Part shown: positions 1 through 51,216 of the stretch, one piece after another
Layout of the letters: each line of letters opens with the position of its first letter
How positions within the stretch are numbered: position 1 is the stretch's first letter
Notes under the pieces: model-generated
Seen by the model: the letters and a program-made list of their open reading frames with translations, nothing else
What the model was told of the DNA's origin: nothing
Database searches by the model: none
Source of the DNA: Chloroflexota bacterium
GTDB lineage: Bacteria; Chloroflexota; Limnocylindria; Limnocylindrales; CSP1-4
NCBI GenBank assembly: GCA_030447745.1
Contig: JAUJOH010000003.1
Coordinates: forward strand, 102,727-166,726
Length of the DNA: 64,000 bases
Direction of reading: 5' to 3'
Made by a program: the position numbers and the translations under genes

Positions 1-947
1 ACCGCGCCGCGGAGCGTTTCGAGCCACTCGGCCGTCGTCCGAGTCGCGAACCGGCCGCCCAGAAGCGCGACGAGCTCGTCCCGATGCTCGCGGCGCACGG
101 CGAACGACCCGAAGCGCGGATCCCGGGCCAGGTCCGGCATTCCGATCGCCGTAACCAGCGCGGTGTAGAACTTCTCCTTGGGACAAGCCACGGCGACGTA
201 GCCGTCCGCTGTCGCGAAAAACTGGAACGGGACGACGCTCGGATGGGCGGACAGCGGCGCGCGGCGGGTGGCGGAACCGGACGACAGGTACCAGGCAGCC
301 GGATAACTCAGCATCGCGAGGGCGCTGTCGTAGAGGTTCGTCTCGAGATCCCGACCGCGCCCTGTGCGCCGTGCATCGAGGACGCCGGCGACGAGGCCGA
401 GGCACGCGGTCAGTCCGGCGATGTAGTCGGCCAGCGAGAGCCCGCTCTTCGTGGGTGGCCCGTCCGGCTCGCCGGTGAGTGACGCCCAGCCGGACTCCGC
501 CTGAATGAGGGCGTCGTACCCTGGGAGGACGGCATCCGACCCGACGCTTCCGTAGCCCGTCAGCGAGACGCACACGACTCGCGGATTCACCGCCGCGAGA
601 TCGGCATAGGTGAGCCGGAGCCGAGCCGGCTGATCGCCGCGGAGGTTGCTGTAGACGGCGTCGGCCGACCCGACAAGGCGCTCGAATGCCTCGCGGCCGC
701 GCGGGTGCTTGAGGTCGAGCAGCACGCTCCGCTTGTTCCTGTTGAACGCCTCGAAGAAGAGGGAGTCCGTGCCCTCGATGCCGGGCGGGATGGCCCGGCT
801 GACGTCACCGCCGACCGCGGGGTCCTCAACCTTGATGACGTCGGCGCCGAGGTCGGCGAGATAGAGCGACCCGAACGGCCCCGCCCCGTACTGCTCGACC
901 GCGATGATGCGCAGGTCCGCGAGTGGCGCCGCGGCGGCCTCGCTCAT
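1..947 (-). CDS. CaiB/BaiF (family III) CoA-transferase, C-terminal part cut by window edge
   Basis: The frame reads from an ATG at 947 down to the window edge without a stop, so the C-terminus is missing. The N-terminus has the family III CoA-transferase signature: a start like LRIIAVEQYGAGPFGS, then LADLGADVIKVEDP, then NRNKRSVLLDLKHPRG, and later CVSLTGYGSVG. Such enzymes move CoA between organic acids in the cytoplasm. Its ATG overlaps the stop of the upstream enolase-superfamily gene (ATGA), so it is the last visible gene of an operon with a 2-oxoacid dehydrogenase E1 and a sugar-acid dehydratase. I infer that it handles a CoA thioester made in that pathway; the substrate cannot be read from sequence. 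Confidence 0.85.
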   Translation of the reverse strand, partial: MSEAAAAPLADLRIIAVEQYGAGPFGSLYLADLGADVIKVEDPAVGGDVSRAIPPGIEGTDSLFFEAFNRNKRSVLLDLKHPRGREAFERLVGSADAVYSNLRGDQPARLRLTYADLAAVNPRVVCVSLTGYGSVGSDAVLPGYDALIQAESGWASLTGEPDGPPTKSGLSLADYIAGLTACLGLVAGVLDARRTGRGRDLETNLYDSALAMLSYPAAWYLSSGSATRRAPLSAHPSVVPFQFFATADGYVAVACPKEKFYTALVTAIGMPDLARDPRFGSFAVRREHRDELVALLGGRFATRTTAEWLETLRGA

Positions 948-2122
948 CGCGCGGTGACGCGCGCGTCCGTCGTGTGCGCGCGGACGTAGTCCCAGTCCAG
1001 CTCGATACCGAACCCCGGCCGGTCCGGCAGCGTGTAGCGCCGGTTGGCGATCCGGCTCGACATGTCGGAGAGTCTCCAGAAGAAGGGATCGCGCTCCTCG
1101 TCGAAGCACTCCACGAATGTGTGTCCGACGACGCTCGCCAGAAGGTGCGCCGCCACCTGGGGCTCCTCGTGATGGCCGAGCTCCACCCCGAAGGCCGCAC
1201 ACAGCCCGGCGGCCTTGCGCCAGATCGTCGGACCGCCCGCCCAAGAGGCATCGAAGTTGCTGACGTCGAGCTCGCCGTCGACGATGAGGTCCCGGAGGCC
1301 GGGGAGCGTCATCTCGCTTTGCCCCGCGCAGACCGGGATGCCGGTCTGGTAGCGGACGTCGCGCATCCAGAGCCGGTCGTTCGTCCACCGGCAGGGCTCC
1401 TCGAACCAGCGGATGTCCTGGTCCCCGACCAATCGCCCGAACTCGACGGCGTGCGCGCGGTCGTAGCCCTGGTTCGCATCGACCATCAGCGCGAAGACGG
1501 GACCGGCGGCCTCTCGCGCAACCCGCACCCGCACGGCGTCCTCGGCCGGCGATTTGCCACCCACCTTGAACTTGCACCCGGCGAAGCCCATCTCGACGTA
1601 CCGGCGCATCAGCTCGGCGGTCTCGTCGAGGTCCAGGTGGTAGTAGCCGCCAATCACGCTGATCGGCAAGTCGTCCGTCACCGCACCCCAGACCCGGTGG
1701 AGCGGTTGGTCGAGTGCCTTGGCAAAGACGTCCCAGATGGCCGTGTCGACGGCAGCGATCGCCTGGAGCGCAAGACCGCGATCACGAAGGATGTTGTGAG
1801 TCGCGGGTTCCATCGCGGCCCACGCGCCTTCCGGATCGGTGGCGCTGCGGCCGATAATCACCGGCGCCAGCTCACGATGGATGATGTCAAGGATCACGCC
1901 CTGCTCGGCGTCGGTATCGCCGCTGTAGGTCTCCGAGATGAGGCCATCGGCGGTGTGAAGCCGGACGATGATCGTGCAGCGCTTGTCCATGGAGTAGGCG
2001 CTGCCCGAGAACCGCCGCGGGAGGGGCGCCCTGAGCGCGATCGTCTCGATCCGCTCAATCCGGAGCGAGCCACGATCAAAGCCGTGACGCACGGCTGGCC
2101 CGGCACCGGGTGCAGTGGTCAA
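944..2122 (-). CDS. Enolase-superfamily (mandelate racemase/muconate lactonizing type) acid-sugar dehydratase
   Basis: An enolase-superfamily enzyme that would abstract a proton alpha to a carboxylate, usually dehydrating a sugar acid to a 2-keto-3-deoxy acid. Visible are a lysine motif CKFKVGG, the metal ligands in MVDANQGYD and RWFEEP, and a late histidine region GHHEEPQVAAHLLA. It is clearly paralogous to the gene at 4237-5373 (shared IETI.LR.PL and RCTII.R starts). The start is uncertain: a TTG at 2122 overlaps the E1 beta stop, and a GTG lies at 2092; the longer upstream ATG at 2251 would intrude deep into E1 beta. Operon: E1 alpha, E1 beta, this gene, CoA-transferase. Confidence 0.85.
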   Translation of the reverse strand: MTTAPGAGPAVRHGFDRGSLRIERIETIALRAPLPRRFSGSAYSMDKRCTIIVRLHTADGLISETYSGDTDAEQGVILDIIHRELAPVIIGRSATDPEGAWAAMEPATHNILRDRGLALQAIAAVDTAIWDVFAKALDQPLHRVWGAVTDDLPISVIGGYYHLDLDETAELMRRYVEMGFAGCKFKVGGKSPAEDAVRVRVAREAAGPVFALMVDANQGYDRAHAVEFGRLVGDQDIRWFEEPCRWTNDRLWMRDVRYQTGIPVCAGQSEMTLPGLRDLIVDGELDVSNFDASWAGGPTIWRKAAGLCAAFGVELGHHEEPQVAAHLLASVVGHTFVECFDEERDPFFWRLSDMSSRIANRRYTLPDRPGFGIELDWDYVRAHTTDARVTAR

Positions 2123-3138
2123 CGACCGAGCGCGGTCCGCGCGGCCGCGGCGATCCGCTCGACGGACGGGATGATCTCGTTCTCGAGCGGAGGGCTGTAG
2201 GGGATCGGCAGGTCGGCCGGGAGGCTGACCGCCCGCGGTGCGGCGTGCCACGACTGCCCGGCCATGGTGAGCTCAGAGATGATCGTCGCTCCCCAGCCGC
2301 CGGCGTGGACCTGCTCCTCGGAGACCACGAGGCGGCCCGTCTTCGAGACTGACGCCGCGATCGTCGCGAGATCGAGTGGCCGGATCCAGCGCAGGTCGAT
2401 GACCTCCGTAGAGATCCCATCCGCGGCGAGCTGGTCCGCAGCCTTGAGCGCCCGTTCGACCATCAGCAGGGTGGCGACGATGGTCACGTCACTTCCCTCG
2501 CGCAGGACGGCTGCCTTGCCGAGGTCGGCAATCGCGCCCCGCCGGACGGTGCCCTTCCTCCCGTACAGGGCCTTGTGCTCGTGGAAGATCACCGGGTTGT
2601 CGTCGTGGATCGCGCTTCTCAGGAGCTCGTACGCTGCGCCCGGGCTGGAAGCCGTCACGACCCGCAGCCCCGGCAGACTCATGAACCAGCTCTCGCCGGT
2701 CGCGCTGTGCTGCGTCCCGAACCGGCCGAGCGCGCCCGAGATCGAGCGGACCGTTACCGGCACCGAGAATTGCCCGCCGCTCATGTAGCGGTACTTGGGC
2801 AGCTGATTGACGATCGCATCGCCGGCGGTCGGCAGGAAGTCGGCGAACATGATCTCGACGACCGGCCGGAGCCCGGTCAGGCTCATCCCGAGCGCGACAC
2901 CCATGAAACCGTTCTCGCAGATCGGCGTGTTCCGCACACGGCTCGGACCAAACTGTTCCACGAGGCCGTGGTTTGTCTTGAAGACCCCGCCGTCGGCGCT
3001 GACGTCCTCGCCCATCAGGACGACGGCCTCGTCGGCGGCCATCTCGTCCTCGAGGGCGGCGTTGATCGCCTCGCGGTAGGTCAGCTCGACCGTCGTCGGC
3101 TCGCTCGGGGCGGCAAGGGGCTCAGCCAGCGTAGACAT
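2119..3138 (-). CDS. 2-oxoacid dehydrogenase E1 component, beta subunit
   Basis: Beta subunit of a thiamine-diphosphate 2-oxoacid dehydrogenase (pyruvate, acetoin or branched-chain type). It starts with an ELTYREAINAALEDEM stretch and has VVLMGEDV, then TPICENGFMGVALGMSLTG, a central RSISGALGRFGTQHS, and a C-terminal transketolase domain with VIDLRWIRPLD. I chose MSTLAEP at 3138 because the longer frame would overlap E1 alpha by 80 bases; the chosen start overlaps it by 17. It should pair with the E1 alpha encoded just upstream. Which 2-oxo acid is used is unknown; the two dehydratase neighbours point to a 2-keto-3-deoxy sugar acid or its breakdown product. Confidence 0.9.
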   Translation of the reverse strand: MSTLAEPLAAPSEPTTVELTYREAINAALEDEMAADEAVVLMGEDVSADGGVFKTNHGLVEQFGPSRVRNTPICENGFMGVALGMSLTGLRPVVEIMFADFLPTAGDAIVNQLPKYRYMSGGQFSVPVTVRSISGALGRFGTQHSATGESWFMSLPGLRVVTASSPGAAYELLRSAIHDDNPVIFHEHKALYGRKGTVRRGAIADLGKAAVLREGSDVTIVATLLMVERALKAADQLAADGISTEVIDLRWIRPLDLATIAASVSKTGRLVVSEEQVHAGGWGATIISELTMAGQSWHAAPRAVSLPADLPIPYSPPLENEIIPSVERIAAAARTALGR

Positions 3139-4087
3139 AGCGCTCCGTCTCCTCGAGCGTCGGGTACGGGGACTGCACGGCACGGTCGGCGGCGGCGTCA
3201 ATCTCGGCCTGGACCTCCGCCCGCATCGCGGCCTGATCGTCCGGGGAGACTCGACCGTCGGCCGCCAGCCTGGCGCCGAGCAACTCGATCGGGTCGCGGC
3301 TCGTCCAGCGTTCGAGCTCGCCCTCCGGGCGGTACTTGGCCGGATCTGCCCGCGAGTGCCCGCGGTACCGGTACGTCTTCATCTCGAGGAGCGTCGGTCC
3401 CTCGCCGCGGCGGGCGCGCTCCACGGCATCGCTCGTCGCTCCATGGACCGCGTCAACGTCCTGGCCGTCGACGATCACACCCGGAAAGCCATAGGGACCG
3501 GCCCGCCGGGCGAGGTCGTCGAGCGGCGTCGTGCTCCGCAGGGGACTGTACTCGCCGTACAGGTTGTTGGTGATGATGAAGACGACTGGCGCCGTCCAGA
3601 CGGCGGCCATGTTGAGCGCCTCGTGGAAGGTGCCGATGTTCGTCGCTCCGTCGCCGAAGAACGAGAGCGCGACGTGCGGCTGCTGGCGGATCTGGAACGC
3701 AACCGCTGCCCCGACGGCGATCGGCAGCCCGGCGCCGACGATGGCGTTCGCGCCGATGTTGCCCTTGCTCACGTCGATAAGGTGCATCGAGCCGCCGACG
3801 CCGCCGGAACAGCCCGAGGAGCGGCCCATCAACTCGGCGAACGCCGTCTCCGGGGCCATCCCGAGCGCGAGCGCCTCCCCGTGCCCGCGATAGGTATTGG
3901 TCTGGACGTCACCCGGCCGCATCGCGCCGATCGCCCCGACGGACACCGCCTCCTGGCCCTGGCACAGGTGCGTCGTGCCCTGGATCGCACCCTGCATGAA
4001 GAGCTCCTGGACCTTCTCCTCGAAGAGCCGGATCTCCAGCATCTTGCGGAACCAGGCGACATGATCGGGCGAGAGCGGGTCGCTCAT
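3122..4087 (-). CDS. 2-oxoacid dehydrogenase E1 component, alpha subunit
   Basis: Alpha subunit of a thiamine-diphosphate 2-oxoacid dehydrogenase. The TPP motif is clear (SFFGDGATNIGTFHEALN ... TNNLYGEYSP), with an early QGTTHLCQGQEAVSVG typical of acetoin/pyruvate E1 alpha, and a phosphorylation-loop-like TYRYRGHSRADPAKYR. The start at MSDPLSP (4087) has GGAGG nine bases upstream; the longer frame starts inside the divergent promoter. First gene of the leftward operon E1 alpha - E1 beta - dehydratase - CoA-transferase. A LacI-type operator-like site lies 67 bases upstream. No E2 or E3 gene is adjacent; a split E2 is found at 46.6 kb. Confidence 0.92.
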   Translation of the reverse strand: MSDPLSPDHVAWFRKMLEIRLFEEKVQELFMQGAIQGTTHLCQGQEAVSVGAIGAMRPGDVQTNTYRGHGEALALGMAPETAFAELMGRSSGCSGGVGGSMHLIDVSKGNIGANAIVGAGLPIAVGAAVAFQIRQQPHVALSFFGDGATNIGTFHEALNMAAVWTAPVVFIITNNLYGEYSPLRSTTPLDDLARRAGPYGFPGVIVDGQDVDAVHGATSDAVERARRGEGPTLLEMKTYRYRGHSRADPAKYRPEGELERWTSRDPIELLGARLAADGRVSPDDQAAMRAEVQAEIDAAADRAVQSPYPTLEETERYVYAG

Positions 4088-4153: not shown

Positions 4154-4167
4154 GGTACCGTTTCCAG
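4154..4167 (-). promoter_or_regulatory. LacI-type operator-like site between E1 alpha and dehydratase
   Basis: The minus strand reads CTGGAAACGGTACC, a full match to the island consensus CTGGAAACGNTNCC. The identical 14-mer is at 21659-21672. It sits between two divergent genes and could control both. The role is inferred from recurrence and position. Confidence 0.6.
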
Positions 4168-4236: not shown

Positions 4237-5373
4237 ATGCTCACAATCGAGGCCATCGAAACGATCCCACTACGTATCCCGCTTCGGTTCACCTACCGCG
4301 GAAGCTACTACCGGATGCGCAATCGATGCACGATCATCACGCGGATCCGGACGAAGGAGGGTGTCCTCGGCGAGGCTTACAACGCCGACGAGGACGAGCC
4401 GCTCCAGTCCGCGATCCGAACGATCGTCCACGACGAGCTCGCGCCGGCACTGATCGGGCAGGACGCCATGGCCGTCGAGCGCTGCTGGGAGCGGATGCTG
4501 CCGGCAACGTTCGATCAGCTCCGGCCGCGGTGGTACGCGATGCAGGCCATCGCCTGCGTCGACACAGCGATCTGGGATGCCGTCGGCAAGGCGGTGGGGC
4601 AGCCGCTCTGGCGCCTTTGGGGCGGCTACAGCGACCGCGTCCCGATGATCGGGATCGGCGGCTACTACGTCCCCGAGGACGGCGCCGCGGCGGGCAACGA
4701 GATCGAGGACGAGATCGACTTCTTCCGGGTGGAGCACGGGATGGTCGGGATGAAGTTCAAGATCGGCGCGGTCCCCCCGGAGGACGATGCCGCACGCCTG
4801 CGACGGGCGCGCAGGCACTCGGGCGACGACTTCCTGTTCGTCGTCGACGCTAACCAGGGGTACACGGTGGCGGAGGCGCTCGAGTTCGTCGACCGAATCA
4901 GGGCCGAGGGGGTCGAGCTCCGATGGTTTGAGGAGCCCACTCGCTGGCACGGCGACTTCCGTTCGCTGCGCGACGTGCGGCTGCGAGGCAACGTGAATGT
5001 GGCCGCCGGCCAGAGCGAGCACAGCCGCGTCGGGATGCGCGAGATGATGGTGGCGGGTGCGATCGACGTTTCGAACTACGACGCGTCGTGGGGCGGCGGG
5101 CCCACCGAATGGCGCCGGGTGGCGACGCTCGCGTCCGCGTTCGATCTCCAGTGCGGCCACCACGAAGAGGCGCAGGTGGGCTCCCACCTGCTGGCCTCGA
5201 TCTCGCACGGCACGTTCGTCGAGGCGTTCTCGCCGGCGCGCGACCCGATCTTCTGGGGCATGCTGTCGAACCGCCCGGCGCTCGTCGACGGGCAGTTCCA
5301 TCTGCCGGACGGCCCCGGTCTCGGCTGGGTGCTGGACGAGGACTTCATCGAGCGGTACAGGGTCGATCGCTGA
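4237..5373 (+). CDS. Enolase-superfamily acid-sugar dehydratase, paralogue of the gene at 944-2122
   Basis: A 378-residue enolase-superfamily protein. Proton-abstraction and metal-site features are visible: MKFKIGA, VVDANQGYT, LRWFEEPTRWHG, and the late GHHEEAQVGSHLLAS. It likely dehydrates an aldonate or uronate. The start MLTIEAIETIPLR has GGAGG about twelve bases upstream; the ATG at 4174 lies in the regulatory region. It is divergent from the E1 operon across a shared operator and is followed by the LacI gene. Two close paralogues on either side of one E1 pair suggest two epimeric substrates, or a duplication with later specialisation (inference). Confidence 0.87.
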   Translation: MLTIEAIETIPLRIPLRFTYRGSYYRMRNRCTIITRIRTKEGVLGEAYNADEDEPLQSAIRTIVHDELAPALIGQDAMAVERCWERMLPATFDQLRPRWYAMQAIACVDTAIWDAVGKAVGQPLWRLWGGYSDRVPMIGIGGYYVPEDGAAAGNEIEDEIDFFRVEHGMVGMKFKIGAVPPEDDAARLRRARRHSGDDFLFVVDANQGYTVAEALEFVDRIRAEGVELRWFEEPTRWHGDFRSLRDVRLRGNVNVAAGQSEHSRVGMREMMVAGAIDVSNYDASWGGGPTEWRRVATLASAFDLQCGHHEEAQVGSHLLASISHGTFVEAFSPARDPIFWGMLSNRPALVDGQFHLPDGPGLGWVLDEDFIERYRVDR

Positions 5374-5475: not shown

Positions 5476-6522
5476 ATGACCGATGCGCGGGACGCCGGCG
5501 ACGGCGCCCGGCGGCGGACGAACATGCGCGAGGTGGCTGAGCTGGCCGAGGTCGCCATCTCGTCGGTCTCCCGGGTCCTGTCCGGTCATCCCGACGTGAG
5601 CCAGGACATGCGTGACCGCGTTCTCGACGCCGTCGCCCAGCTCGAGTACGAGCCGGACTTCCTCGCCCAGAGCCTCCGCCGCGGTCAGACGCTGTCGGTG
5701 GGTTTCGTCCTTGCCGACATCTCCAACCCGCTCATGGCGGAGATCGTGCTGGGCGCGGAGGCCGAGCTGCGCGGCGCCGGCTACTCGCTCCTCCTCATGA
5801 ACTCAGAGAACGACCCTGCACTCGACGCTACCCACGTACGCTTCTTCCAGGGTCGCCGGGTCGACGGAATGATCCTCTCGCTGGTCAGCGAGTCGGACCC
5901 ACGCACGATCGGGACGCTGCGAGCCGTCGACGTGCCCCTGGTGGTCGTCGACCGGCGGCTCGATCCGGACGTCCGCGCGAGCTCGGTTCGCAACGATCAC
6001 GCCGCCGGCATGGCGGAGGCCGTACGGCACCTGCTGGAGCTGGGGCACCGGAGGGTCGCGCTGATCACCGGCGCGCTAGACACGTTCCCGGGGCGCGAGC
6101 GGATGGAGGCCATGAAACGGGTCATCGCCGCGACCAGAGGTCAGGTCGAGGGGCGCTACCTGCCCGGCTCGTTCTCGGCCGATCATGGCGACGCCGCGAC
6201 GCGGGAGCTGGTGGGCAGCTCCAACCCCCCGACCGCGATCGTGTGCGGCGGCAACCAGCTCCTGATCGGCTGCCTGCGGGTGATCCAGGAGCGGGGCCTC
6301 GAGGTAGGGCGTGACATCTCGCTCGTGACCTGCGACGACGTTGCCCTGAGTGCCCTCTACCGCCCGCCTATCGCTTCGATCTCGCGCGATACGGTGGCCC
6401 TCGGGCGGACCGCCGCCGAGCTGCTGCTGAAGCGGCTGGCCGGTAGCGCCGAGCTCGAGGATGTCGTGCTCCCGACCACCTACACCCCGCGGGCTTCGGC
6501 GGCACCCCCGCCGGCGGGCTGA
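5476..6522 (+). CDS. LacI-family transcriptional regulator (probable master regulator of the island)
   Basis: A 348-residue LacI-family repressor. The N-terminal helix-turn-helix is seen at NMREVAELAEVAISSVSRVLSGHP, followed by the hinge-helix region LEYEPDFLAQSLRRGQT. The periplasmic-binding-protein-like sensor domain starts at SVGFVLADISNPLMAEI and ends with the usual DVALSALYRPPIASISRD. The second half should bind a sugar or sugar acid. It is the only intact LacI gene in the window, while LacI-type operator-like sites recur in front of most island units. A weak palindrome around 5425 (CTGGATATCCGCG) is a possible autoregulatory site. It follows the dehydratase by about 100 bases on the same strand. 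Confidence 0.93.
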   Translation: MTDARDAGDGARRRTNMREVAELAEVAISSVSRVLSGHPDVSQDMRDRVLDAVAQLEYEPDFLAQSLRRGQTLSVGFVLADISNPLMAEIVLGAEAELRGAGYSLLLMNSENDPALDATHVRFFQGRRVDGMILSLVSESDPRTIGTLRAVDVPLVVVDRRLDPDVRASSVRNDHAAGMAEAVRHLLELGHRRVALITGALDTFPGRERMEAMKRVIAATRGQVEGRYLPGSFSADHGDAATRELVGSSNPPTAIVCGGNQLLIGCLRVIQERGLEVGRDISLVTCDDVALSALYRPPIASISRDTVALGRTAAELLLKRLAGSAELEDVVLPTTYTPRASAAPPPAG

Positions 6523-6583: not shown

Positions 6584-8131
6584 TCAGGCCGCGGGCAGGG
6601 TCATGGCATCGGGTACGTGGCGCTCGAGCCGGGTGATCGCCCGAGCGAGCGCCTCGACCTCGGGGAAACTCGCCACGACGAGCGGGTCGGAGAGCCTGCC
6701 GTCCGACACAACGTACGCGATGTCGGCGGCCTCGAACACTTCCGGCACTTCTGTGCAGAAGATCACGACCGCACGGCCCTGGCTCGCGTACTCGCCCATC
6801 AGCCGGTAGATCTCGCGTTTCGAGCCGATGTCCACCCCGCGGGTCGGCTCCTCGAGCACGAGCACCTCCGGGCGCTTCACGATCGCGGCCGCGATGGCGA
6901 CCTTCTGCTGGTTGCCGCCGGACAGCGACCGGATCGGCAGGTTCACCGAGAGTGCCTTGACCCGGAACTGCTCTCGTAGCGTGTGGGCGATCTGAAGCAT
7001 CCTCCGCGGCCGGAGGGCGCCTCCGGAAGTCGTGATCTCCCGGTCGAGGCGGGCCACCATGTTCTCGCCGATCGTGAGGTTGTCGAACAGCGTCGCCTGG
7101 CGATCTGGTGCCACGAGGCTCGTGGCCGCGGCGACATCGCGCTCGCGATCGTGGCCGGCGATCTCGATCCGGCCGGCGGCACGCTCGAAGCCCGCCAGCG
7201 AGCGGACCAGCTCCCGGGCACCGGAACCCTCGACGCCGACGAATGCCACGATTTGGCCGGCTCGGACCTCAAGGTCGAGTTCGCTGAAGTCCCCGTCAAC
7301 ATGGGTCCAGCCGGACAGGCGGAGCGCGACGGTCGCGCCGTCCGAGCGGACGCGCGCTGCCTCGTCCGGCTCGCGGCTCGCCTGGCCGACGACCAGCCCG
7401 CCGGCGATCTCCTCCTGGGTCAACCTGTCTCCCTCGAGGACGGTGGCGCGCCGGCCATCGAGGATCAGCGCGACCCGGTCGGCGTGTCTCGCGAGCTCGG
7501 CGATCCGGTGCGAGACCAGCAGCACGACGCGGCCGGCGTCGGCGAGCGCGTGCATTCGGCGGAACAGGTCGTTGGACTCCTCTGGCGTCAGCGCCGAGTT
7601 CGGCTCGTCGAACAGGAAGACCCGTGCGTCGCGGGCAAGCGCCCGGGCGATCTCGACGCGCTGCTGGATCGCCAGCGGGACCGTCGCGAGCGGGCGGTGA
7701 CGAAACTGGAGGATCGCGAGGTCGGCCATCAGGGCGCGTTCCTGCTCGCTCAGCGGCCGCGTCAGCGCTCGCGTCCCCTCGCGTCCGACCATGACGTTCT
7801 CGCCGACGGTCAGATTCGGGAAGAGCTGCGGCTCCTGGTGGACGACCGCCACACGCTCGCGGTCGACATCCGTCTCCCAGATCGCGCCGTCGAGCCGGAT
7901 CTCGCCCGCGTCTGCGGCAACCTCGCCGGCGAGGATCTTGATCAGCGTGCTCTTGCCGGAGCCGTTGGGACCGGCGATGCCGAGGATCTCTCCGGGCGAG
8001 ACATCGACATCGAGCCCATCGAGGGCTCGGGTGTCGCCGTACCACTTCCGGAGCCCGCGGATATGGAGGCCGGCATCGCCGGTGGCTGCCTCCCGGCCGG
8101 GCTCGACGCGCTCCGTCCGTGCCGCGGTCAC
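6584..8131 (-). CDS. RbsA-like sugar ABC transporter ATP-binding protein (two NBDs)
   Basis: A double ATPase of the CUT2 (ribose/xylose) class, 515 residues. NBD1 has Walker A GPNGSGKST and Walker B LFDEPNSALTPEE. NBD2 has the usual degenerate Walker A (GVEGSGARELV), an intact signature LSGGNQQK, and VLVLEEPTRGVDIG. The true start is the GTG at 8131, which overlaps the permease stop (GTGA); the longer frame to 8428 runs through the permease. It energises sugar import with the permease and lipoprotein encoded just upstream. Confidence 0.93.
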   Translation of the reverse strand: MTAARTERVEPGREAATGDAGLHIRGLRKWYGDTRALDGLDVDVSPGEILGIAGPNGSGKSTLIKILAGEVAADAGEIRLDGAIWETDVDRERVAVVHQEPQLFPNLTVGENVMVGREGTRALTRPLSEQERALMADLAILQFRHRPLATVPLAIQQRVEIARALARDARVFLFDEPNSALTPEESNDLFRRMHALADAGRVVLLVSHRIAELARHADRVALILDGRRATVLEGDRLTQEEIAGGLVVGQASREPDEAARVRSDGATVALRLSGWTHVDGDFSELDLEVRAGQIVAFVGVEGSGARELVRSLAGFERAAGRIEIAGHDRERDVAAATSLVAPDRQATLFDNLTIGENMVARLDREITTSGGALRPRRMLQIAHTLREQFRVKALSVNLPIRSLSGGNQQKVAIAAAIVKRPEVLVLEEPTRGVDIGSKREIYRLMGEYASQGRAVVIFCTEVPEVFEAADIAYVVSDGRLSDPLVVASFPEVEALARAITRLERHVPDAMTLPAA

Positions 8132-9186: not shown

Positions 9187-9242
9187 CGCGACATTGCTCC
9201 CTCGGCGCGCGCGCGCAACTTGCCATCCGGCTGACAAGGAGC

Positions 9243-9270
9243 CGGAGGGCAGCTCCGACGCTGCCCTCCG
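9243..9270 (-). terminator. Intercistronic hairpin between binding protein and permease
   Basis: A perfect 11-bp inverted repeat, CGGAGGGCAGC and GCTGCCCTCCG, with a 6-base loop. No T-tract follows on the minus strand, so it is more likely an mRNA-stabilising or partial-termination element than a full terminator. It lies in the 109-base gap downstream of the binding-protein gene. Confidence 0.5.
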
Positions 9271-9295
9271 ACCGTACGACGTCAGCCCGTAGCGG

Positions 9296-14955: not shown

Positions 14956-14990
14956 CGCGCCGCGGCAGCACACGACGAGGAGGAACGGTC

Positions 14991-19617: not shown

Positions 19618-19631
19618 CTGGAAACGGTTGC
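19618..19631 (+). promoter_or_regulatory. LacI-type operator-like site upstream of SDR 19682
   Basis: CTGGAAACGGTTGC, preceded by TA as at other sites. It lies 51 bases before the SDR start and also upstream of the leftward SDR remnant and lactonase genes, so it may once have controlled both directions. Confidence 0.6.
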
Positions 19632-21601: not shown

Positions 21602-21658
21602 GGAGCCGCGGAACGAGCTTGCCCGCGGTTCCGCCGGCTTGACAGCGTCTTAGCCGAT

Positions 21659-21672
21659 GGTACCGTTTCCAG
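21659..21672 (-). promoter_or_regulatory. LacI-type operator-like site upstream of permease 21705
   Basis: The minus strand reads CTGGAAACGGTACC, identical to the site at 4154-4167. It lies 33 bases before the permease start. The identity of two sites 17 kb apart is the strongest single support for one regulator. Confidence 0.62.
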
Positions 21673-21704
21673 CGACGGTTCCGTCATCCGCTCGTCGAGG
21701 GTGC

Positions 21705-22757: not shown

Positions 22758-22808
22758 TCGACCAAGTCCAGCGAAAAAGCACCGGGTCCACCAGCCCGCC
22801 GTCCGGTC

Positions 22809-22829
22809 GACGACCGACGTCCGGTCGTC
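22809..22829 (+). other. Intercistronic hairpin between permease and binding-protein genes
   Basis: A perfect 8-bp inverted repeat, GACGACCG and CGGTCGTC, with a 5-base loop. It sits in the 109-base gap before the binding-protein start and has no T-run. It may stabilise the downstream message; function inferred only from position. Confidence 0.3.
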
Positions 22830-22866
22830 TGAACGGTCGCGCTCACTCGAGGAGGAGGCTCTGATC

Positions 22867-24066: not shown

Positions 24067-24103
24067 CGAGCGGGCGGGAGACCATCGTTCTTCCCTCGAC
24101 ACT

Positions 24104-25620: not shown

Positions 25621-25632
25621 AAGGAGGAGGCG

Positions 25633-27815: not shown

Positions 27816-27828
27816 CGGGGTGGCGCGC

Positions 27829-39909: not shown

Positions 39910-39942
39910 CGACGTACCTCCACCGGGCCCCATGCTGCGAAG

Positions 39943-39971: not shown

Positions 39972-39994
39972 GTTCGATCACCGAACCGGCGCGC

Positions 39995-43395: not shown

Positions 43396-43399
43396 GCGG

Positions 43400-44893
43400 T
43401 CACCCTCCCGAGGCCTCGAGGAGGCGCGCGGAGGTGACGGCATCCCCGGTAACCTCCGTCACGACCCTGCCCTTGGCCATCACGTAGACCCGATCGGCGA
43501 CCTGGACCGCCTCCTCGTAGTCCGAGGTGCTTATGAGGATGGCCACGCCCTGCTCGGCGAGCCGCCGCAGGGCGGCGTAGATGTCCTGGCGGGCGCCTAC
43601 GTCAACGCCACGGGTGGGCTCGATGAGCACGAGCACCTTCGAGTTGCGCTCGAGCCACCGGCCCAGCAGGACCTTCTGCTGGTTGCCGCCGGACAGGGTC
43701 CCCATCAGCTGGCGCGGGTCATTTCGCGAGCGGATGCCGAGCCACTCATGCCAGCGGCGGTAGGCTCGCGCCTCCTGCACGAAGGTGATGAGCTGACCGA
43801 GGACCGCCATTCTCGGCCACGACGCGACCGAGACGTTCTCGGCGACCGGACGGACCATGAACGCGCCGCCGGCCTTGCGCTCGGCCGGCAGGAAGCCGAC
43901 GCCCTTGCCGATCCCTCCCAGCGGCCCGGACAGCGTCACGCGCTCCGCGTCGATCTCGAGCGTGCCCCTGTCAACCGGACGAAGGCCGTATGCGGTCTCG
44001 CCGACCTCCGCGGCGCCCGACCCGAGCTTCCCGTAGATGGCGACGATCTCGCCGATCCGGACCTCGATCGAGACGTCGGTGAAGTCGTCCGACGAACTGG
44101 CGTCCTGCCAGCGGATCACCGGCTTCGCCGGAAGCTCCGCCTCGACCGGCGCGGGTCTCGGCAGCTCGGTGAGGCGGCGTCCGACCATCGCCTCGATCAG
44201 CGACGGGCGGTCCGTGTCCGTCACCGCCGCGCTGAGCGCCTCGGACCCGTCGCGGAGCACCTGGACCCGGTCCGCGATCCGGAAGACCTCGTCGAGCCGG
44301 TGGGTGATGTAGATGATTGCGACGCCCTGGTCGCGCAGCCGCCGGATGAACGCGAACAGCCGCTCGGCCTCGTGGTGCGACAGCGCGGCGGTCGGCTCGT
44401 CGAGGATCAGCAGCTTCGCCCGGCGAGACAGGGCGCGCGCGATCTCGACGATCTGGCGCTCCCCCACACGCAGAGTCGACACGGTGCGCCGTGGGCCGAT
44501 GTCGACGCCCAGTTCGTCGAGGATCTTGCGCGCCCGCCGGTTGACCTCCGGCCAGTCGACCAGCCCGAAGCGGTTGGGGATCCGGCCCATCGAGATGTTC
44601 TCGGCCACGGTAAGCGTCGGCGCGTCCTGGAACTCCTGGAAGATGATCGCGACGCCCAGCTTCTGCGCGTCGATCGGCGTGAGCGCCGCGAACGACTCGT
44701 CTCCGACGATCACGGCGCCGCCGTCCGGCGTGTAGTCGCCGGCGATGATCTTGACGAGCGTGCTCTTGCCGGCGCCGTTCTCCCCGAGCAGCGCGAGCAC
44801 GGACCCGCCGACGGCGTCGAGATCCACACCGTGGAGCACCTCGACCCCGCCGAACGACTTGCGGATCCCCTGCGCCCGGAGGGCGAAGGTCAT
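43400..44893 (-). CDS. RbsA-like sugar ABC transporter ATP-binding protein (two NBDs)
   Basis: An intact 497-residue double ATPase. NBD1: Walker A GENGAGKST, Walker B LLILDEPTAALSHHE, and YITHRLDEVF. NBD2: degenerate Walker A (YGKLGSGAAEV), signature LSGGNQQKVLLGRW, and VLVLIEPTRGVDVG, where the Walker B aspartate is Ile. The NBD1 Q-loop reads IIFQEFQDAPTLTV. It powers the third sugar transporter. The start MTFALRAQG is 39 bases downstream of the binding-protein stop. Confidence 0.93.
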   Translation of the reverse strand: MTFALRAQGIRKSFGGVEVLHGVDLDAVGGSVLALLGENGAGKSTLVKIIAGDYTPDGGAVIVGDESFAALTPIDAQKLGVAIIFQEFQDAPTLTVAENISMGRIPNRFGLVDWPEVNRRARKILDELGVDIGPRRTVSTLRVGERQIVEIARALSRRAKLLILDEPTAALSHHEAERLFAFIRRLRDQGVAIIYITHRLDEVFRIADRVQVLRDGSEALSAAVTDTDRPSLIEAMVGRRLTELPRPAPVEAELPAKPVIRWQDASSSDDFTDVSIEVRIGEIVAIYGKLGSGAAEVGETAYGLRPVDRGTLEIDAERVTLSGPLGGIGKGVGFLPAERKAGGAFMVRPVAENVSVASWPRMAVLGQLITFVQEARAYRRWHEWLGIRSRNDPRQLMGTLSGGNQQKVLLGRWLERNSKVLVLIEPTRGVDVGARQDIYAALRRLAEQGVAILISTSDYEEAVQVADRVYVMAKGRVVTEVTGDAVTSARLLEASGG

Positions 44894-44932
44894 CGATCGC
44901 GTCTCAGCAAGTCGGCTGCTCGGGTTGCGGCG

Positions 44933-46009
44933 TCAGCACGCAGGCGTGTCAGGGTAGACGGTCCGGATGTTGTCCCGGGTGACGACCTCGTGCTCGGTGA
45001 AGATCTCCTCCGGGATCGTCTCGCCCTGGAGCGCCTTGACGATGTTCGGGATCAGGAGCGTGCCGTACCGTTCCGGGAAGTAGGCCACCGACGCGATGTA
45101 GTTCGGGTTGCACGCCACCTCTTTCCAGACGGACGGATCGGTGCCCTGGCCAGAGTAGAAGAGGTCGTCCTGCCGCCCGAGCGTGTTGGCGGCGCCGATC
45201 GCGCCCAGGATGCCGTCCTCGTTGATCGCGACGACGACGATCCGATCGCCCTGCAGGGCACCGAGCAGGTTCGTCATCTGCTCGAGCGCGGGATCCGTCC
45301 GGTCGGCCCCGTCGAGCACCCGCTCCTTGTCCTCCGGAATCTCGCAGAACTCTTGAAAACCCTCGCGGTAGCCACCCATCCGGTCCGTGTTCGCGGCCCC
45401 GGCGGCCGTCGACTCAAGCGATACGTACGCGGTGAAGTCACAGTCCCAGGTGTCCTTCGCGTACTGCCCGATCGCGCGGCCGCCCATGCGTCCCGCCTCG
45501 CGGTTGTTCGCGCCCATGAAGGCGATCTGGCAGGGCTCCTGAATGATGTCGATGGCGATCGTCGGCACGCTGTTGTACGCGGCGCAGATCTCCGGCGAGC
45601 TGTCCTGGAAGACCTGGAAGTTGAGCACGCCGTCGACGCCTTGGACCTGCAGGTTCCGCGCGCACTCGAGCGCCTTGGCCGCGTCGATCTGTGAGTCGCA
45701 GAAGACGAGCTCCTGGCCCGCGTCCGCAGCGGCCTCCTTGATGCCGTCCGAGACGAGCTTGACGAACGGGACGCTGTCGCCGAGCGAGATGTACCCAATC
45801 TTGAATGCCTCAGCCGCGGCGGACCCGGTAGGAGCCTCCGACGGCACGGCGGAGGCTGCCGAGGCCGACGGCGCCGATGATGCCGGCGGCGCGGAAGTCG
45901 CGGTCGAGGGCGATGTCGTGGCGCCGGGCGTGGTGCAAGCAGCGACGACGAGTGGGAGGGCGGCCAAGGACGGAAGGCGGCGCCGTGCGCCGATGCTGCG
46001 AACGGACAC
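44933..46009 (-). CDS. Sugar-binding lipoprotein of a CUT2 ABC transporter
   Basis: About 358 residues from a GTG at 46009 (GAGGAG upstream); an ATG at 46048 is possible but adds an unlikely tail before the signal peptide. The lipobox is LVVAACTT, then a Ser/Ala/Pro linker to about residue 65. The mature domain reads FKIGYISLGDSVPFVKLVSDG, VQGVDGVLNFQVFQDSS, VPTIAIDIIQEPC and VVVAINEDGILGAIGAA. It has several cysteines, some probably paired. An operator-like site is 46 bases upstream. A decayed copy lies at 39995. Confidence 0.92.
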   Translation of the reverse strand: MSVRSIGARRRLPSLAALPLVVAACTTPGATTSPSTATSAPPASSAPSASAASAVPSEAPTGSAAAEAFKIGYISLGDSVPFVKLVSDGIKEAAADAGQELVFCDSQIDAAKALECARNLQVQGVDGVLNFQVFQDSSPEICAAYNSVPTIAIDIIQEPCQIAFMGANNREAGRMGGRAIGQYAKDTWDCDFTAYVSLESTAAGAANTDRMGGYREGFQEFCEIPEDKERVLDGADRTDPALEQMTNLLGALQGDRIVVVAINEDGILGAIGAANTLGRQDDLFYSGQGTDPSVWKEVACNPNYIASVAYFPERYGTLLIPNIVKALQGETIPEEIFTEHEVVTRDNIRTVYPDTPAC

Positions 46010-46054
46010 GGTGGTCTCCTCCTGCAGGCGCGGGGACTCCAGCAACAAACATTA

Positions 46055-46068
46055 CTGGAAACGTTCCG
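46055..46068 (+). promoter_or_regulatory. LacI-type operator-like site upstream of the third transporter operon
   Basis: CTGGAAACGTTCCG, with the near-palindrome GGAAACGTTCC, preceded by TA. It is the most symmetric of the island sites. Confidence 0.62.
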
Positions 46069-46513: not shown

Positions 46514-46527
46514 CTGGAAACGCTTTC
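46514..46527 (+). promoter_or_regulatory. LacI-type operator-like site between muconolactone-isomerase-like and lipoyl-protein genes
   Basis: CTGGAAACGCTTTC, followed by ACC. It lies in the divergent gap 46448-46600 and ties the E2 genes at 46.6 kb to the same regulon as the E1 genes at 2-4 kb. Confidence 0.58.
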
Positions 46528-46846: not shown

Positions 46847-46859
46847 CCGCGGCTCGGAC

Positions 46860-47606
46860 ATGGCGGAGGTGAGCGGACGCCACCCGGTCCGGGTCAGCCC
46901 GATGCGCGCCGCGATCGCGCGCCGGATGGTCCAGAGCAAGCAGCAGGCACCCCACTTCTACGTCTCGACGTCGATCGAGATGGACGCCCTCCTCGCCCGG
47001 AGCCGGACAGACAACGACGGTCGCCCCGCCGAGCGGCGGGTCACGCTCACCGCCTACCTGGTCCGGGCCCTGGCCCTCACGCTCACGGAGCACCAGGCCT
47101 TCAACGCCGTCTGGGAGGGCGAGACGCTCGTGCGCGTGGACTCGATCAACATCGGCGTCGCGATCGCCCTCGACGACGGCCTCATCGCACCTGCACTCCT
47201 CGCCTGCGGGGACCGAGTGGTCGACGACCCCGCCGTCGGCCTGGCCGACCTCGTGGCCCGCACGCGGGCCGGGAAGCTGCGCGCTCCCGAGATGAGCGAC
47301 GCGACCTTCACCATCAGCAACCTCGGGATGTTCGATGTGTCGGCGTTCACGGCAATCGTCACCCCGCCCCAGGTCGCGATCCTCGCCACCGCGCGCACGG
47401 AACCGCGGGCGGTCGTGCACGATAACCAGATCGTCGTCCGGCAGGTGCTCACCGCCACGCTGTCGTCCGACCATCGCGCCGTCGACGGTGTGGGAGCGGC
47501 ACGGTTCCTGGAGACCTTCAAGGGGTTCGTGGAGGCAGCCGAGACATGGCCTGCCGCGGAGACGGCGCCGGCACCGGGGCCGGCTGAACCCCGAGGTGGA
47601 CGGTGA
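46860..47606 (+). CDS. E2-type acyltransferase catalytic domain, lacking lipoyl and subunit-binding domains
   Basis: 248 residues that correspond only to the catalytic domain of dihydrolipoamide acyltransferase. It starts VRVSPMRAAIARRMVQSKQQAPHFY and has FTISNLGMFDVSAFTAIVTPP and the catalytic LSSDHRAVDGVGAARFLETF with His and Asp. No E1/E3-binding domain is visible before it. With the free lipoyl protein encoded upstream it forms a split E2 that should move an acyl group to CoA. Its stop overlaps the GTG of the next gene (GTGA). A sequencing indel is unlikely to explain the split, since both ends are clean. Confidence 0.9.
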   Translation: MAEVSGRHPVRVSPMRAAIARRMVQSKQQAPHFYVSTSIEMDALLARSRTDNDGRPAERRVTLTAYLVRALALTLTEHQAFNAVWEGETLVRVDSINIGVAIALDDGLIAPALLACGDRVVDDPAVGLADLVARTRAGKLRAPEMSDATFTISNLGMFDVSAFTAIVTPPQVAILATARTEPRAVVHDNQIVVRQVLTATLSSDHRAVDGVGAARFLETFKGFVEAAETWPAAETAPAPGPAEPRGGR

Positions 47607-49051
47607 CCCTCCTCGCCGGCGCGGCGGAGGTCGACATCACCCCGCCCGTCCCCATCGACGTCCTCGGGTACGTCCGACGGCCGATCGCGCCGCGTCGCGT
47701 GTGGCAGCCGCTCCGCGCGACGGCTTGCGTGCTGCGCGACGACGACACCATCGTCGCGATCGTCGCGGCGGACGTAGTCGGGCTCACGACCGCGATGGCG
47801 GACCGAATCCGTGAGCGGGTGGGCGCCGCGATCGGCTGCGACCCGGCGCAGATCCTGCTCAACTCGAGCCACTCGCACGCCGCGCCGTGGCCGGGCGCGA
47901 CGATCAAGCTCGGGGGCGAACGGGACGGCTGGACTGAGCTCGAGCTGCGTTACTGGAACGCCGTCCCGGATCTCTACGCGTCGGCCGCGGTGCAAGCCGT
48001 TGAACGACTGCGGCCCGCGCGGATCGGCGGCGGGGTCGGGAAGGTGAACGGTCTCGCCGTCAACCGCCGCGAGCGGACGGACGACGGCCGGACCATCCTG
48101 GGGTGGAACAAGGACGGATTCGTCGATGAGTCGGTCGTGGTGATCCGGATCGACGAGACCGGTGGCGAGACGACGTTCCCGGGTGCGATCGCCACGATCG
48201 TCGGCTTCGGATGCCACCCGGTGGTCGTCGGGCCGGACGTGCCGGACGTCGGACCGGACTTCATCGGGCCCCTCCGCGACCACCTGTCGAACGTCCACCG
48301 GCCCGGCGCCGTGACCGTCTTCCTCCAGGGTGCGGCCGGCAACGTCCTCCCGCTCGAAGCGTTTTTCGATGAGCACGGGCCCGAGGATGCCTTCGGGGAG
48401 CGGCTCGCCCTGGAGGCCGCTCATGCCGTCGCCGACGCCGACCCGCGCCCCATTACCGTCGAGAAGCGGGACTGGGGCTCGCTCACGCCGATCTCGCTGT
48501 ACAGACGGCGGCTGGTCGAGAACCCTCGGCCGCAGCTCCTGCGCGCCGCGCGACGGGTCATCCAGCTCCCAATGGTCGACCTGCCGGCCGCGGAGGACCT
48601 GGAGGAGGAGCTGACCGAGCGGCGAGCAGATCTCGAGGCCCGCGAGGCTGGTGGTGAGTCCCGGGCGACGACGAACCTCATCAAGTACCACATCAGCTGG
48701 CTCGAGCTGATGCTCCGCCTCGAGCGCGGAGGCGGCCGCCCGACGGCGGTCGAGGGCGAGATCTGGGCGGCTCGGCTGGGCGACTGCGCGGTCGTCGGTG
48801 CACCCGGCGAGATCTTCGGGGAGATCGGCGCCGCCGTGCGGGCCGCCTCGCCGGCTCCGGTGACGATCTTCGCCGGCTACTCGCAGGGCGTCCTCGGCTA
48901 CGTCGCCACGCCGGAGGAGTACCCGCACGGCGGCTACGAGCCGGCGATCTCCCATCGAGGCTACGGCCACCCCGCGCCGTTCAGTCCGGATGTCTCGGGC
49001 ATCATCCGCGACACCTCGCTCGAGCTCCTGCGCGAGCTGTTCAACGGCTAG
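47603..49051 (+). CDS. Neutral/alkaline ceramidase-like metallohydrolase
   Basis: A 482-residue protein starting at a GTG that overlaps the E2 stop. It resembles the N-terminal domain of neutral ceramidases as seen in many bacterial hypotheticals: AGAAEVDITPPVPIDVLGYV, LLNSSHSHAAPWPG (His metal ligands), VGFGCHPVVVGPD, LQGAAGNVLPLE and FAGYSQGVLGYVATPEEY. No signal peptide is visible, so it should act in the cytoplasm. The substrate is unknown; in a sugar island it may hydrolyse an amide or lactone. Coupled to the split E2 operon. Confidence 0.8.
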   Translation: MTLLAGAAEVDITPPVPIDVLGYVRRPIAPRRVWQPLRATACVLRDDDTIVAIVAADVVGLTTAMADRIRERVGAAIGCDPAQILLNSSHSHAAPWPGATIKLGGERDGWTELELRYWNAVPDLYASAAVQAVERLRPARIGGGVGKVNGLAVNRRERTDDGRTILGWNKDGFVDESVVVIRIDETGGETTFPGAIATIVGFGCHPVVVGPDVPDVGPDFIGPLRDHLSNVHRPGAVTVFLQGAAGNVLPLEAFFDEHGPEDAFGERLALEAAHAVADADPRPITVEKRDWGSLTPISLYRRRLVENPRPQLLRAARRVIQLPMVDLPAAEDLEEELTERRADLEAREAGGESRATTNLIKYHISWLELMLRLERGGGRPTAVEGEIWAARLGDCAVVGAPGEIFGEIGAAVRAASPAPVTIFAGYSQGVLGYVATPEEYPHGGYEPAISHRGYGHPAPFSPDVSGIIRDTSLELLRELFNG

Positions 49052-49059
49052 ACGGGAGC

Positions 49060-49360: not shown

Positions 49361-49434
49361 GGGCGGGGTGACGATCGGTTGTCCACTCGACACGCGGAGT
49401 CTCCGCCGATGCCGCGCTAGGATCCGGAGAGTGA

Positions 49435-50737
49435 TGCCGTCGAGACCCGCTTCCGATCTGACCGCGGCGATCGCCGACGGTGACGCGCACCGCCGTGCTG
49501 CCAGGGCCGATCTCGCCCGCCGGCGTGCCATCCTGCCGCTTCACTACTGGCGGCAGCAGGCGCACCTCACGACCCCCGCTGGGGACGCCCGCGATGGCGC
49601 GCAAGGCCGTCGAAGGCGGCACGGCGGGTTGGTCGAATGCTCGAGCGGCTCGGCCTGACGGCCACCGATCTCGCCGAGCGCCTCGAGCTTCCCTCGCCGC
49701 GCGTCGAGGAGCGGCTGGCCGAGCCAGCGCGCGCGCCCATCGTCATGCTCGACGGCGAGGACGCGATGGCGCCGGGCGAGGCCGCCGCCACGCGCGGCCT
49801 CGCGGTGGCCGCCGACACCTTCGCCGGGGCCGACTGGGGCTCGGGACGTCTCGGAGCCTTCGCTTCTACCGGCCACCCGGGGCTAAACCTGGACACGACC
49901 GTCCACGACCTGTACACCCTGTTGTGGGACCTGCGCGGCCGTTGCGGCGACGACCCCGCAGCCTTCCCCCTCGATGGGATCGTGTTCCCGAAGATCGAGC
50001 ATCCCGAGGAGGTCGACTTCGTCAACGGGCTGCTCCACCGGGCGGAGACCGCGTTGGGACTGCCGAACGGCCGGATACGCGTCGCCTACCTCGTGGAGTC
50101 CGGTTGGGCCGCCTCCCAGCTCGCCGAGATCGTCCGGCGGGCGGCGGCGCCTCGCGTCGCTCATCTTCGGGCTCGCCGACTACAGCGCCGATCTCGGGCT
50201 GCCGACAATCGGCAACGACCATCCGCTGGCCAACTGGGCACGTTCCGAGATCGTGGCGGTCGCGGGCGCGGTGGGCGTGCCGGCCGTCGACGGGATGACG
50301 CTCGAGTACCCGGTGGCCGACCCCGCGCTTGACGCGACGACCAACCGGGTCCGCTGGTTGGACCGGATGCGACTCGTGTACGACGACGCGGTCGGAGCGC
50401 GCGAGCTGGGGATGGTCGGCAAGTGGGTCGGCCATCCCGCGCAGCTGTTCGCCGTGCTGCTGGCGTGCGACGCCCGATTCACGGACGAGTCCCTCCAGGC
50501 CGGGCGGCGAAGCTCGAAGCGTACGGTGAGGCGGTGCGGGCGGAACGCGGCGCGACGATGATCGGCGGCGTGATGAGCGACCGCGCGACGGACCGGCATG
50601 CGCGCGTCCTGCTCCGGCAGGCCACGGCGCTTGGACGGTTCGACCCCAGACGCGCCCTCGCGCTCGGCGTTGTCGATGCCGCCGAGCTCGTCGAAGCCGG
50701 ACTCGTCCCGGAAGCCGAAGGAGGACCGACCACCTGA
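49435..50737 (+). pseudogene. HpcH/HpaI aldolase / citrate lyase beta (CitE)-like protein, frameshifted
   Basis: The ATG at 49435 (GGAG upstream) starts SDLTAAIADGDAHRRAAR and LPLHYWRQQAHLTTP. After a shift near 49610 it reads PSPRVEERLAEP, IVMLDGEDAMAPGEAA and VDGIVFPKIEHPEEVDF (here LDGIVFPK). After a shift near 50150 it reads LIFGLADYSADLGLP, VAGAVGVPAVDGMTLEYP and MVGKWVGHPAQLFAVLLA. After a shift near 50510 it reads ERGATMIGGVMSDRATDRHAR. The IVMLDGED and PKIEH motifs carry the metal-binding acidic residues of CitE/malyl-CoA lyases. It would cleave or form a carbon-carbon bond in an acyl-CoA. It is coupled to the hydratase-like gene after it. Confidence 0.78.
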
Positions 50738-51216
50738 TGAGCGCTCGGTCGTCGGCTGGAGGGCCGCTTCCTCGAGGACTTCACCGTCGGGGACGTCTAT
50801 CGCCACGCGCACGGGCGGACGATCACCGAGACGGACAACACGTGGTTCACGCTGTTGACGAACAACTCCCATGACATCCACTACAACGCCGACTACGCGT
50901 CGCGGACGGAGTTCGGCAAGCCGCTGGTCGTTTCGACGTTGACCCTCGCCATCGTCACCGGGCTGTCCGTGCCGGACGTGAGCCAGAACGCGGTCGCGAA
51001 CCTCGGCTGGGACGACGTGAAGCTGCTGACACCGGTCTTCGCCGGTGACACGCTGTACGCGGAATCGAGGTCCTGGAAGTACGCCCGTCGCGGTCGCGCG
51101 CCGGGCAGGGCATCGTTCGGGTCCGAACCCGCGGCTTCAACCAGCGATCGGAGACGGTCATCACCTATGAGCGGACCGTACTCGTCTACGGGCGCAGCGC
51201 GCGTCCACGATCGTGA
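50737..51216 (+). pseudogene. MaoC-family, mesaconyl-CoA-hydratase-like protein, frameshifted
   Basis: The ATG overlaps the previous stop (ATGA). After an early shift (near 50760) it reads FLEDFTVGDVYRHAHGRT, TNNSHDIHYNADYASRTEFG (hot-dog hydratase motif with Asp and His), VSTLTLAIVTGLSVPDVS and VANLGWDDVKLLTPVFAGDTLYAES. After a second shift (near 51067) it reads GQGIVRVRTRGFNQRSE to a stop at 51216. About 158 residues. It should hydrate or dehydrate an enoyl-CoA and forms a natural pair with the CitE-like lyase, as in mesaconyl-CoA or methylaspartate-type routes. Confidence 0.75.

Follow-up and report, generated by a model that had tools for sequence, protein, structure and literature searches.

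A LacI-type regulon in a Chloroflexota bacterium suggests a CoA-dependent sugar-acid pathway with an acetoin-type dehydrogenase

Introduction

The Dahms, Weimberg, and L-fucose/L-rhamnose diketo routes have an upper half of SDR dehydrogenase, lactonase and enolase-superfamily dehydratase, operate without phosphorylation, and end in an aldolase, a dehydratase or a hydrolase. A non-phosphorylative sugar-acid route has also been proposed for SAR202 (PMC10444878). In this study, we analyzed a stretch of 64,000 nucleotides, further called the window, from a Chloroflexota bacterium (assembly GCA_030447745.1, contig JAUJOH010000003.1). Its sugar-acid gene set resembles these routes in its upper half and in that no kinase was seen in the regulon, but differs in its lower half, which comprises E1, lipoyl protein and E2, a coenzyme A (CoA)-transferase, a hydratase and a CoA lyase. 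We give a probability of about 0.5 to the reading that this set encodes a LacI-controlled, non-phosphorylative sugar-acid pathway with a lower half running on CoA thioesters.

Other described systems share parts with this gene set. The acetoin dehydrogenase complex (acoABC/L) is the nearest branch for the window E1alpha and lipoyl protein, but the window system contains no butanediol or acetoin genes, has a dehydratase as constant partner, and has an E2 that is split into a lipoyl protein and a catalytic domain. Itaconate degradation (Ict/Ich/Ccl, ripABC) has, in the order compared here, a similar RipB/Ich-like hydratase, then a RipC/malyl-CoA-lyase-like lyase, and a CoA-transferase; the window counterparts, however, all score below the curated cut-offs, the lyase is longer and matches DUF6986, and the genes lie within a lipoyl-E2 operon. 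The orphan E1 operons of Haloferax (oadhAB3) and of Thermus plasmid pTF25b encode acetoin-like E1 proteins without a known substrate, pyruvate and 2-oxoglutarate having been excluded for the haloarchaeal one (PMC8305020). The Thermus operon has a free lipoyl protein beside E1, like the window, but no sugar-acid dehydratase was seen next to it. A first-pass annotation, made from the window sequence, knew of no described pathway with the full set, and we likewise found no description of it in the open literature, with most subscription journals outside the search.

Materials and methods

The window is part of contig 26 of a 2.43-Mb genome that is 77% complete and has Chloroflexota MAGs as its nearest named relatives. 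Window proteins were identified by gene calling and Pfam profiles, and the whole genome was searched family by family. The genome-wide aldolase checks covered the DHDPS, KDPG and HpcH/HpaI families, with FAH-type hydrolases outside this search. Relatives of the dehydratase were obtained by scanning a dehydratase alignment against one genome per species, yielding the 80 nearest loci; the neighborhood radius for E1 was 10 kb. Some of these loci lie on short contigs, where absences make the counts lower bounds on presence. E1 orthologs in 151 related genomes (G numbers below) had to be at least 75% identical. The E1alpha tree contained 67 sequences.

A shared operator joins the E1 and E2 loci

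The E1 locus consists of one minus-strand operon (CoA-transferase, the dehydratase MLE_A, E1beta and E1alpha) and a divergent second dehydratase, MLE_B (Table 1). Gene calling and Pfam thus reproduced the layout of the first-pass annotation, with two dehydratases flanking E1alpha/beta and a CaiB/BaiF CoA-transferase. The continuation of the truncated CoA-transferase is visible in locus L005, and a 75% identical homolog lies within the E1 operon of G036. The dehydratases have the MR_MLE N- and C-terminal domains and the KxK motif of MR-type enolase-superfamily dehydratases. In the dehydratase alignment, K174/K176, D205, E231, E260 and H308 are invariant, comprising the KxK lysines, three acidic metal ligands and the His of the His-Asp dyad, with the roles of single residues assigned by analogy. 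Family membership predicts sugar-acid dehydration; the closest solved structures to both proteins (3MSY, 3NO1, 4H83) bear only a generic name.

The window holds six copies of the operator core CTGGAAACG, all upstream of genes, versus 0.26 copies expected, and none of 100 shuffles reached six. The full form CTGGAAACGGTACC has exactly two copies in the entire genome, both inside the window, and the identical form stands ahead of E1alpha in G036 and G064. Other relatives carry a different LacI-type palindrome (~TTGACAA-CG-TTGTCAA, recognized by eye) ahead of lipoyl-E2 or the lyase. The operator joins the E1/dehydratase locus with the lipoyl protein and the stand-alone E2 domain, 42 kb apart, and the operator similarity noticed earlier between these loci is therefore real and above chance. 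The LacI-family protein encoded beside MLE_B would be the candidate to bind the operator copies.

Lipoyl protein, E2 and E3

The E2 chain matches neither a lipoyl domain nor a subunit-binding domain in Pfam. The split E2 near a CitE-like lyase and a mesaconyl-CoA-hydratase-like protein, as described before, was recovered at 46601-51213, the latter two genes being frameshifted. The ceramidase-like gene that overlaps the E2 stop is kept at E1 loci, and G017 and G089 also have it in their lipoyl-E2 operon. Lipoyl-E2 adjoins E1-MLE_A in G005 and G031. A search for an E3 elsewhere in the genome led to a housekeeping E1/E2/E3 set on the same contig, which holds the only strong E3; the second complex must therefore borrow it or rely on an E3 that the incomplete assembly lacks.

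In two genomes of about 1 Mb from a sister family (L193, L194), where no E1 is visible, the genes for a free lipoyl protein and stand-alone E2 domain (about 60% identical) lie near an oligopeptide-type ABC transporter. At L116:7068-8711, a 547-aa protein combines lipoate ligase-like and lipoyl-synthase-like radical SAM domains beside E2 and E3 genes.

Conservation of the dehydratase with E1

An E1 is present within the 10-kb radius at 43 of the 80 dehydratase loci, versus about 1% expected. These 43 loci are spread over Chloroflexota, Actinomycetota and Pseudomonadota and are not independent, so that a formal p value means little. Several other families are more frequent at these loci than at the 37 loci without E1: lipoyl/E2 (29/43 versus 0/37), homologs of the SDR at 14991-15758 (19/43 versus 3/37), CoA-transferase (16/43 versus 3/37) and amidohydrolase (15/43 versus 4/37). 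In freshwater actinobacteria (e.g., Planktophila) the operon reads E1b-E1a-lipoyl-dehydratase-oxidoreductase-dehydratase-SDR, and four freshwater actinobacterial E1 loci also carry a CitE-type lyase. Phytohabitans and Pseudonocardia acaciae are cultured bacteria that have both E1 and the dehydratase. The gene set is, with high probability, one co-regulated, recurring pathway.

We rejected a chance neighborhood on the basis of the operator counts, the recurrence, and the co-occurrence of lyase and E1 described below. The contig is dense in sugar-catabolic genes, and an ordinary acetoin or pyruvate dehydrogenase (PDH) could in principle lie there amid unrelated sugar clusters; given the shared operator, the recurrence in three phyla, the co-occurrence, and the presence of a separate housekeeping PDH, we regard such coincidental neighbors as highly improbable.

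In class-level relatives (L054-L058, L105, L107, L112), E1beta and E1alpha are fused in a single gene, which in most cases has as neighbors a dehydratase, a COG3618 amidohydrolase and an isocitrate/isopropylmalate-dehydrogenase-like gene. A second E1 group (L059-L065) is accompanied by M24-peptidase-like and 3-hydroxyisobutyrate-dehydrogenase-like proteins and an amidohydrolase, as judged from sequence starts.

The CitE-type lyase and the MaoC hydratase

The window lyase is broken into at least four frame segments and MaoC into two, with no stop codons within the segments. Five relatives (G009, G011, G017, G036, G089) encode an intact lyase directly upstream of MaoC. The intact pair directly follows lipoyl-E2 in G011, G017 and G036, in G017 with the ceramidase-like gene in between as in the window, and lies about 8 kb from lipoyl-E2 in G009. 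We had considered lyase and MaoC as unrelated neighbors, the window fragments matching nothing at the 80 dehydratase loci, and the intact copies overturned this. The lyase occurs in six of the 151 related genomes, all six among the nine with an E1 ortholog and none among the other 142 (p = 6e-9, with genomes treated as independent).

The best solved-structure matches of the intact lyases in profile alignment are malyl-CoA/beta-methylmalyl-CoA lyases (5UGR, 4L9Y), and the LDxED, Arg, metal Glu/Asp and GKWxxHPxQ stretches of CoA-thioester lyases are kept. Among the NCBIfam models, the lyase matches malyl-CoA lyase and RipC (58-62 bits for RipC, cut-off 375) and MaoC matches RipB/Ich (195 bits, cut-off 340) as well as mesaconyl-CoA hydratase, while the CoA-transferase exceeds no curated cut-off. 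The lyase and MaoC matches favor CoA-thioester chemistry rather than a pyruvate aldolase. In malyl-CoA lyase, the conserved Arg contacts the substrate carboxylate; its conservation here suggests a 2-oxo acid as second product.

These enzymes might also belong to a module of their own. E1/E2 would then make an acyl-CoA from the sugar acid, and the CoA-transferase, the RipB-like hydratase and the RipC-like lyase would constitute an itaconate- or mesaconate-type branch of their own, linked to E1/E2 by co-expression only. Two enzymes of this triad do resemble itaconate degradation, E1 clusters without lyase exist, and the pair stands apart from lipoyl-E2 in G009. Since the lyase is missing from every relative that lacks an E1 ortholog and lies inside the lipoyl-E2 operon in three genomes, we consider two such modules distinctly unlikely.

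Elsewhere in the window (25500-28300), short open reading frames (ORFs) represent fragments of genes that are uninterrupted in L048 (276 aa) and L058 (323 aa); frameshifts thus affect this stretch as they do the lyase region.

The family of the E1

The dehydratase-linked E1alpha sequences form a single clade (100/98) together with an amidohydrolase-linked group. This clade is distinct from the E1alpha sequences found in two butanediol-linked acetoin operons and does not group with the types of PDH and of branched-chain ketoacid dehydrogenase (BCKDH). Acetoin or butanediol genes are absent from the recurrent clusters identified at E1 loci. The E1 is likely to act on a 2-oxo acid, because the dehydratase is its constant partner.

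The position of the E1alpha nevertheless allows an acyloin route, in which a dehydrogenase of the cluster would convert the keto-deoxy acid or some other sugar derivative to an alpha-hydroxyketone. An acetoin-type E1/E2 would then split this ketone, with no CO2 released, to give an acyl-CoA and an aldehyde. The grouping with acetoin dehydrogenases, the acetoin E2 model as best match of the lipoyl protein, and the several SDR and Gfo/Idh oxidoreductases recurring at E1 loci agree with this route. The constant partner, however, is a dehydratase that by its family makes a 2-keto-3-deoxy acid and no acyloin, and the clade is separate from the butanediol-linked E1 proteins; we rate an acyloin route as less likely, yet a serious alternative. 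The actinobacterial leucine operon with Bkd E1/E2, CitE and MaoC was rejected as a model, since the E1alpha is not BCKDH-like and the neighbors are sugar genes.

Plasmid relatives of the E1alpha proved to belong to different systems. In Nitratireductor, Sinorhizobium, Pseudoroseomonas and Terrarubrum (L068-L071), plasmids carry an acetoin-type E1/E2 directly after a homoserine-dehydrogenase-like oxidoreductase, adjoined in three of the four by a glucitol-type phosphotransferase system. These could serve methylerythritol catabolism via deoxyxylulose phosphate, an acyloin, an idea suggested by the DRL family. On Thermus thermophilus pTF25b (L167:4998-7188), E1alpha, E1beta and an 82-aa ‘hypothetical’ protein that reads as a free lipoyl domain lie next to a TRAP transporter. 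On a plasmid of the haloarchaeon Halomarina (L155, 4223-24505), about 14 kb separate an acetoin-type E1a-E1b from a CoA-transferase, MaoC, MaoC, CitE-like cluster, and a dehydratase of the same family is encoded further on (39426-40571).

Proposed pathway

For the preferred CoA-dependent sugar-acid pathway, we infer the substrate, the order of steps and the products as follows. Ribose-type ABC transporters would import the sugar, which may be a 6-deoxyhexose, a pentose, a branched sugar or an aldarate. SDR dehydrogenases and lactonases would oxidize it to the lactone and then the acid, which the enolase-superfamily dehydratases would turn into a 2-keto-3-deoxy acid. E1alpha/beta with thiamine diphosphate would decarboxylate this acid and load the acyl group onto the free lipoyl protein, from which the stand-alone E2 domain would move it to CoA, with the E3 borrowed from the housekeeping PDH. 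The product would be a 3-hydroxyacyl-CoA, one carbon shorter. After its adjustment by the RipB-like hydratase, the malyl-CoA-lyase/RipC-like enzyme would split it into acetyl-CoA and another compound that is probably a 2-oxo acid, and the family III CoA-transferase would recycle CoA. A CoA-dependent lower half with E1/E2 and a CoA lyase is probable; the precise order given here has about even chances.

Several points weigh against this scheme. The E1alpha lies on the acetoin-dehydrogenase side of the tree, split 100/100 from the housekeeping PDH and BCKDH. Lyase and MaoC are both frameshifted in this assembly, no lyase was detected in G005 and G031, which do have E1/E2, and outside Chloroflexota the lyase was seen within 10 kb only at the four actinobacterial loci. 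Furthermore, the linear 3-hydroxyacyl-CoA that an ordinary aldonic acid would yield lacks the carboxylate that malyl-CoA lyases bind, and a step may therefore be missing from the scheme. The earlier proposal of a single pathway thus stands as far as shared operators, gene order and co-occurrence, including CitE/MaoC, are concerned, while decarboxylation of a 2-keto-3-deoxy acid by an E1 with an acetoin-side E1alpha is only plausible.

None of the scanned window genes was recognized as a KDG/KDPG aldolase, and no DHDPS-family gene was found genome-wide; since even the usual dapA is missing, the incompleteness of the assembly has to be considered here. Contig 24 carries one KDPG-aldolase-family gene, which belongs to a different sugar operon and has a CoA-transferase III of its own nearby, and contig 21 carries a separate HpcH/HpaI gene, both without the operator. 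The first-pass statement that there is no KDPG/KDG-type aldolase consequently holds for the regulon, as far as the 77%-complete genome shows, and fails for the whole genome; the KDPG-type gene is not under the same operator.

Overall, we see roughly even odds for an undescribed sugar-acid pathway in which a dedicated acetoin-type dehydrogenase and a free lipoyl carrier yield a hydroxylated acyl-CoA, the substrate of a malyl-CoA-lyase-like enzyme. Soil-type Chloroflexota would use this pathway, as would some freshwater actinobacteria, there with a CitE-type lyase from a different subfamily. If true, a CoA-linked sugar-acid route, used by uncultured bacteria from soil, freshwater and marine habitats, would join the Entner-Doudoroff, Dahms, Weimberg and diketo-hydrolase routes. 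Functions could then be assigned to an acetoin-type E1 group annotated only as ‘TPP-dependent dehydrogenase’, to the solved but as yet unassigned dehydratases 3MSY/3NO1/4H83, and to the CitE-like lyase matching DUF6986, and a lipoyl domain would be seen to act as a separate carrier protein.

Other genes of the window

Table 1. Features of the sugar-acid gene set and neighboring genes, with positions in the window.
Feature	Position	Strand	Evidence and remarks
Family III (CaiB/BaiF) CoA-transferase	3..947	-	PF02515, 338 bits; runs beyond left edge of window
MLE_A, putative enolase-superfamily acid-sugar dehydratase, 3MSY/3NO1/4H83 group	944..2092	-	PF02746/PF13378; PDB match 409 bits
E1 beta subunit	2119..3138	-	PF02779 + PF02780
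E1 alpha subunit, acetoin-dehydrogenase side of family	3122..4087	-	PF00676; tree
Operator CTGGAAACGGTACC, between E1alpha and MLE_B	4154..4167	-	LacI-type; core at 4159; one of two genome copies
MLE_B, putative acid-sugar dehydratase, paralogous to MLE_A (48% identical)	4237..5373	+	Pfam, PDB match, residue alignment
LacI-family regulator, candidate for shared operator	5476..6522	+	PF00356; homologs recur beside E1
Ribose-type ABC transporter 1 (ATPase, permease, binding protein)	6584..10492	-	Kept beside E1 in G036, G017
MLE_C dehydratase + SDR14 dehydrogenase	13813..15758	+	Together at E1 loci of other phyla
Operator core CTGGAAACG	19618..19626	+	Precedes SDR gene
ABC transporter 2	21657..25117	+	Operator CTGGAAACGGTACC at 21659-21672
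Operator CTGGAAACGGTACC	21659-21672		Precedes ABC transporter 2; core at 21664
COG3618-type amidohydrolase/lactonase	35272-36165	-	Homologs at 15/43 E1 loci
Isomerase-like TIM barrel	36162-37052	-	Pfam
Operator core	37109-37117		Between isomerase-like gene and SDR
SDR	37161-37871	+	Pfam; operator core upstream
ABC transporter 3	42310..46063	-	Operator core at 46055-46063; same arrangement in G089
Operator core	46055-46063		Precedes ABC transporter 3
Operator CTGGAAACGCTTTC	46514..46527	+	Precedes lipoyl-E2
Free-standing lipoyl carrier protein, 81 aa	46601..46846	+	PF00364; best NCBIfam match acetoin dehydrogenase E2
Stand-alone E2 acyltransferase (catalytic) domain, 248 aa	46860..47606	+	PF00198 only; HRAVDG motif
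Ceramidase-fold-like protein	47603..49051	+	Weak PF04734; overlaps E2 stop
CitE/malyl-CoA-lyase-like protein, frameshifted	about 49434..50695	+	Matches DUF6986; intact in G009, G011, G017, G036, G089
MaoC hydratase, RipB/Ich type, frameshifted	about 50759..51213	+	Intact homologs 195 bits to RipB/Ich

The ORF call of ABC transporter 2 overlaps the operator, and its true start is therefore probably 21705. An ApnL-like gene (17314-19281) was considered as a sign of D-apionate; it scores 213 bits versus a cut-off of 750, and the match does not fix the substrate. At L198:766-9359, the genes after an ApnL-like gene encode, in this order, E1alpha, E1beta, a lipoyl protein, a second E1-like protein of 737 aa, another lipoyl protein and an E2 domain. 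An 842-aa ORF in the window (28229-30757) has two cytochrome P450 stretches, and its homolog in G036 is 440 aa long. A P450 beside sugar genes recalls O-methyl-sugar demethylation.

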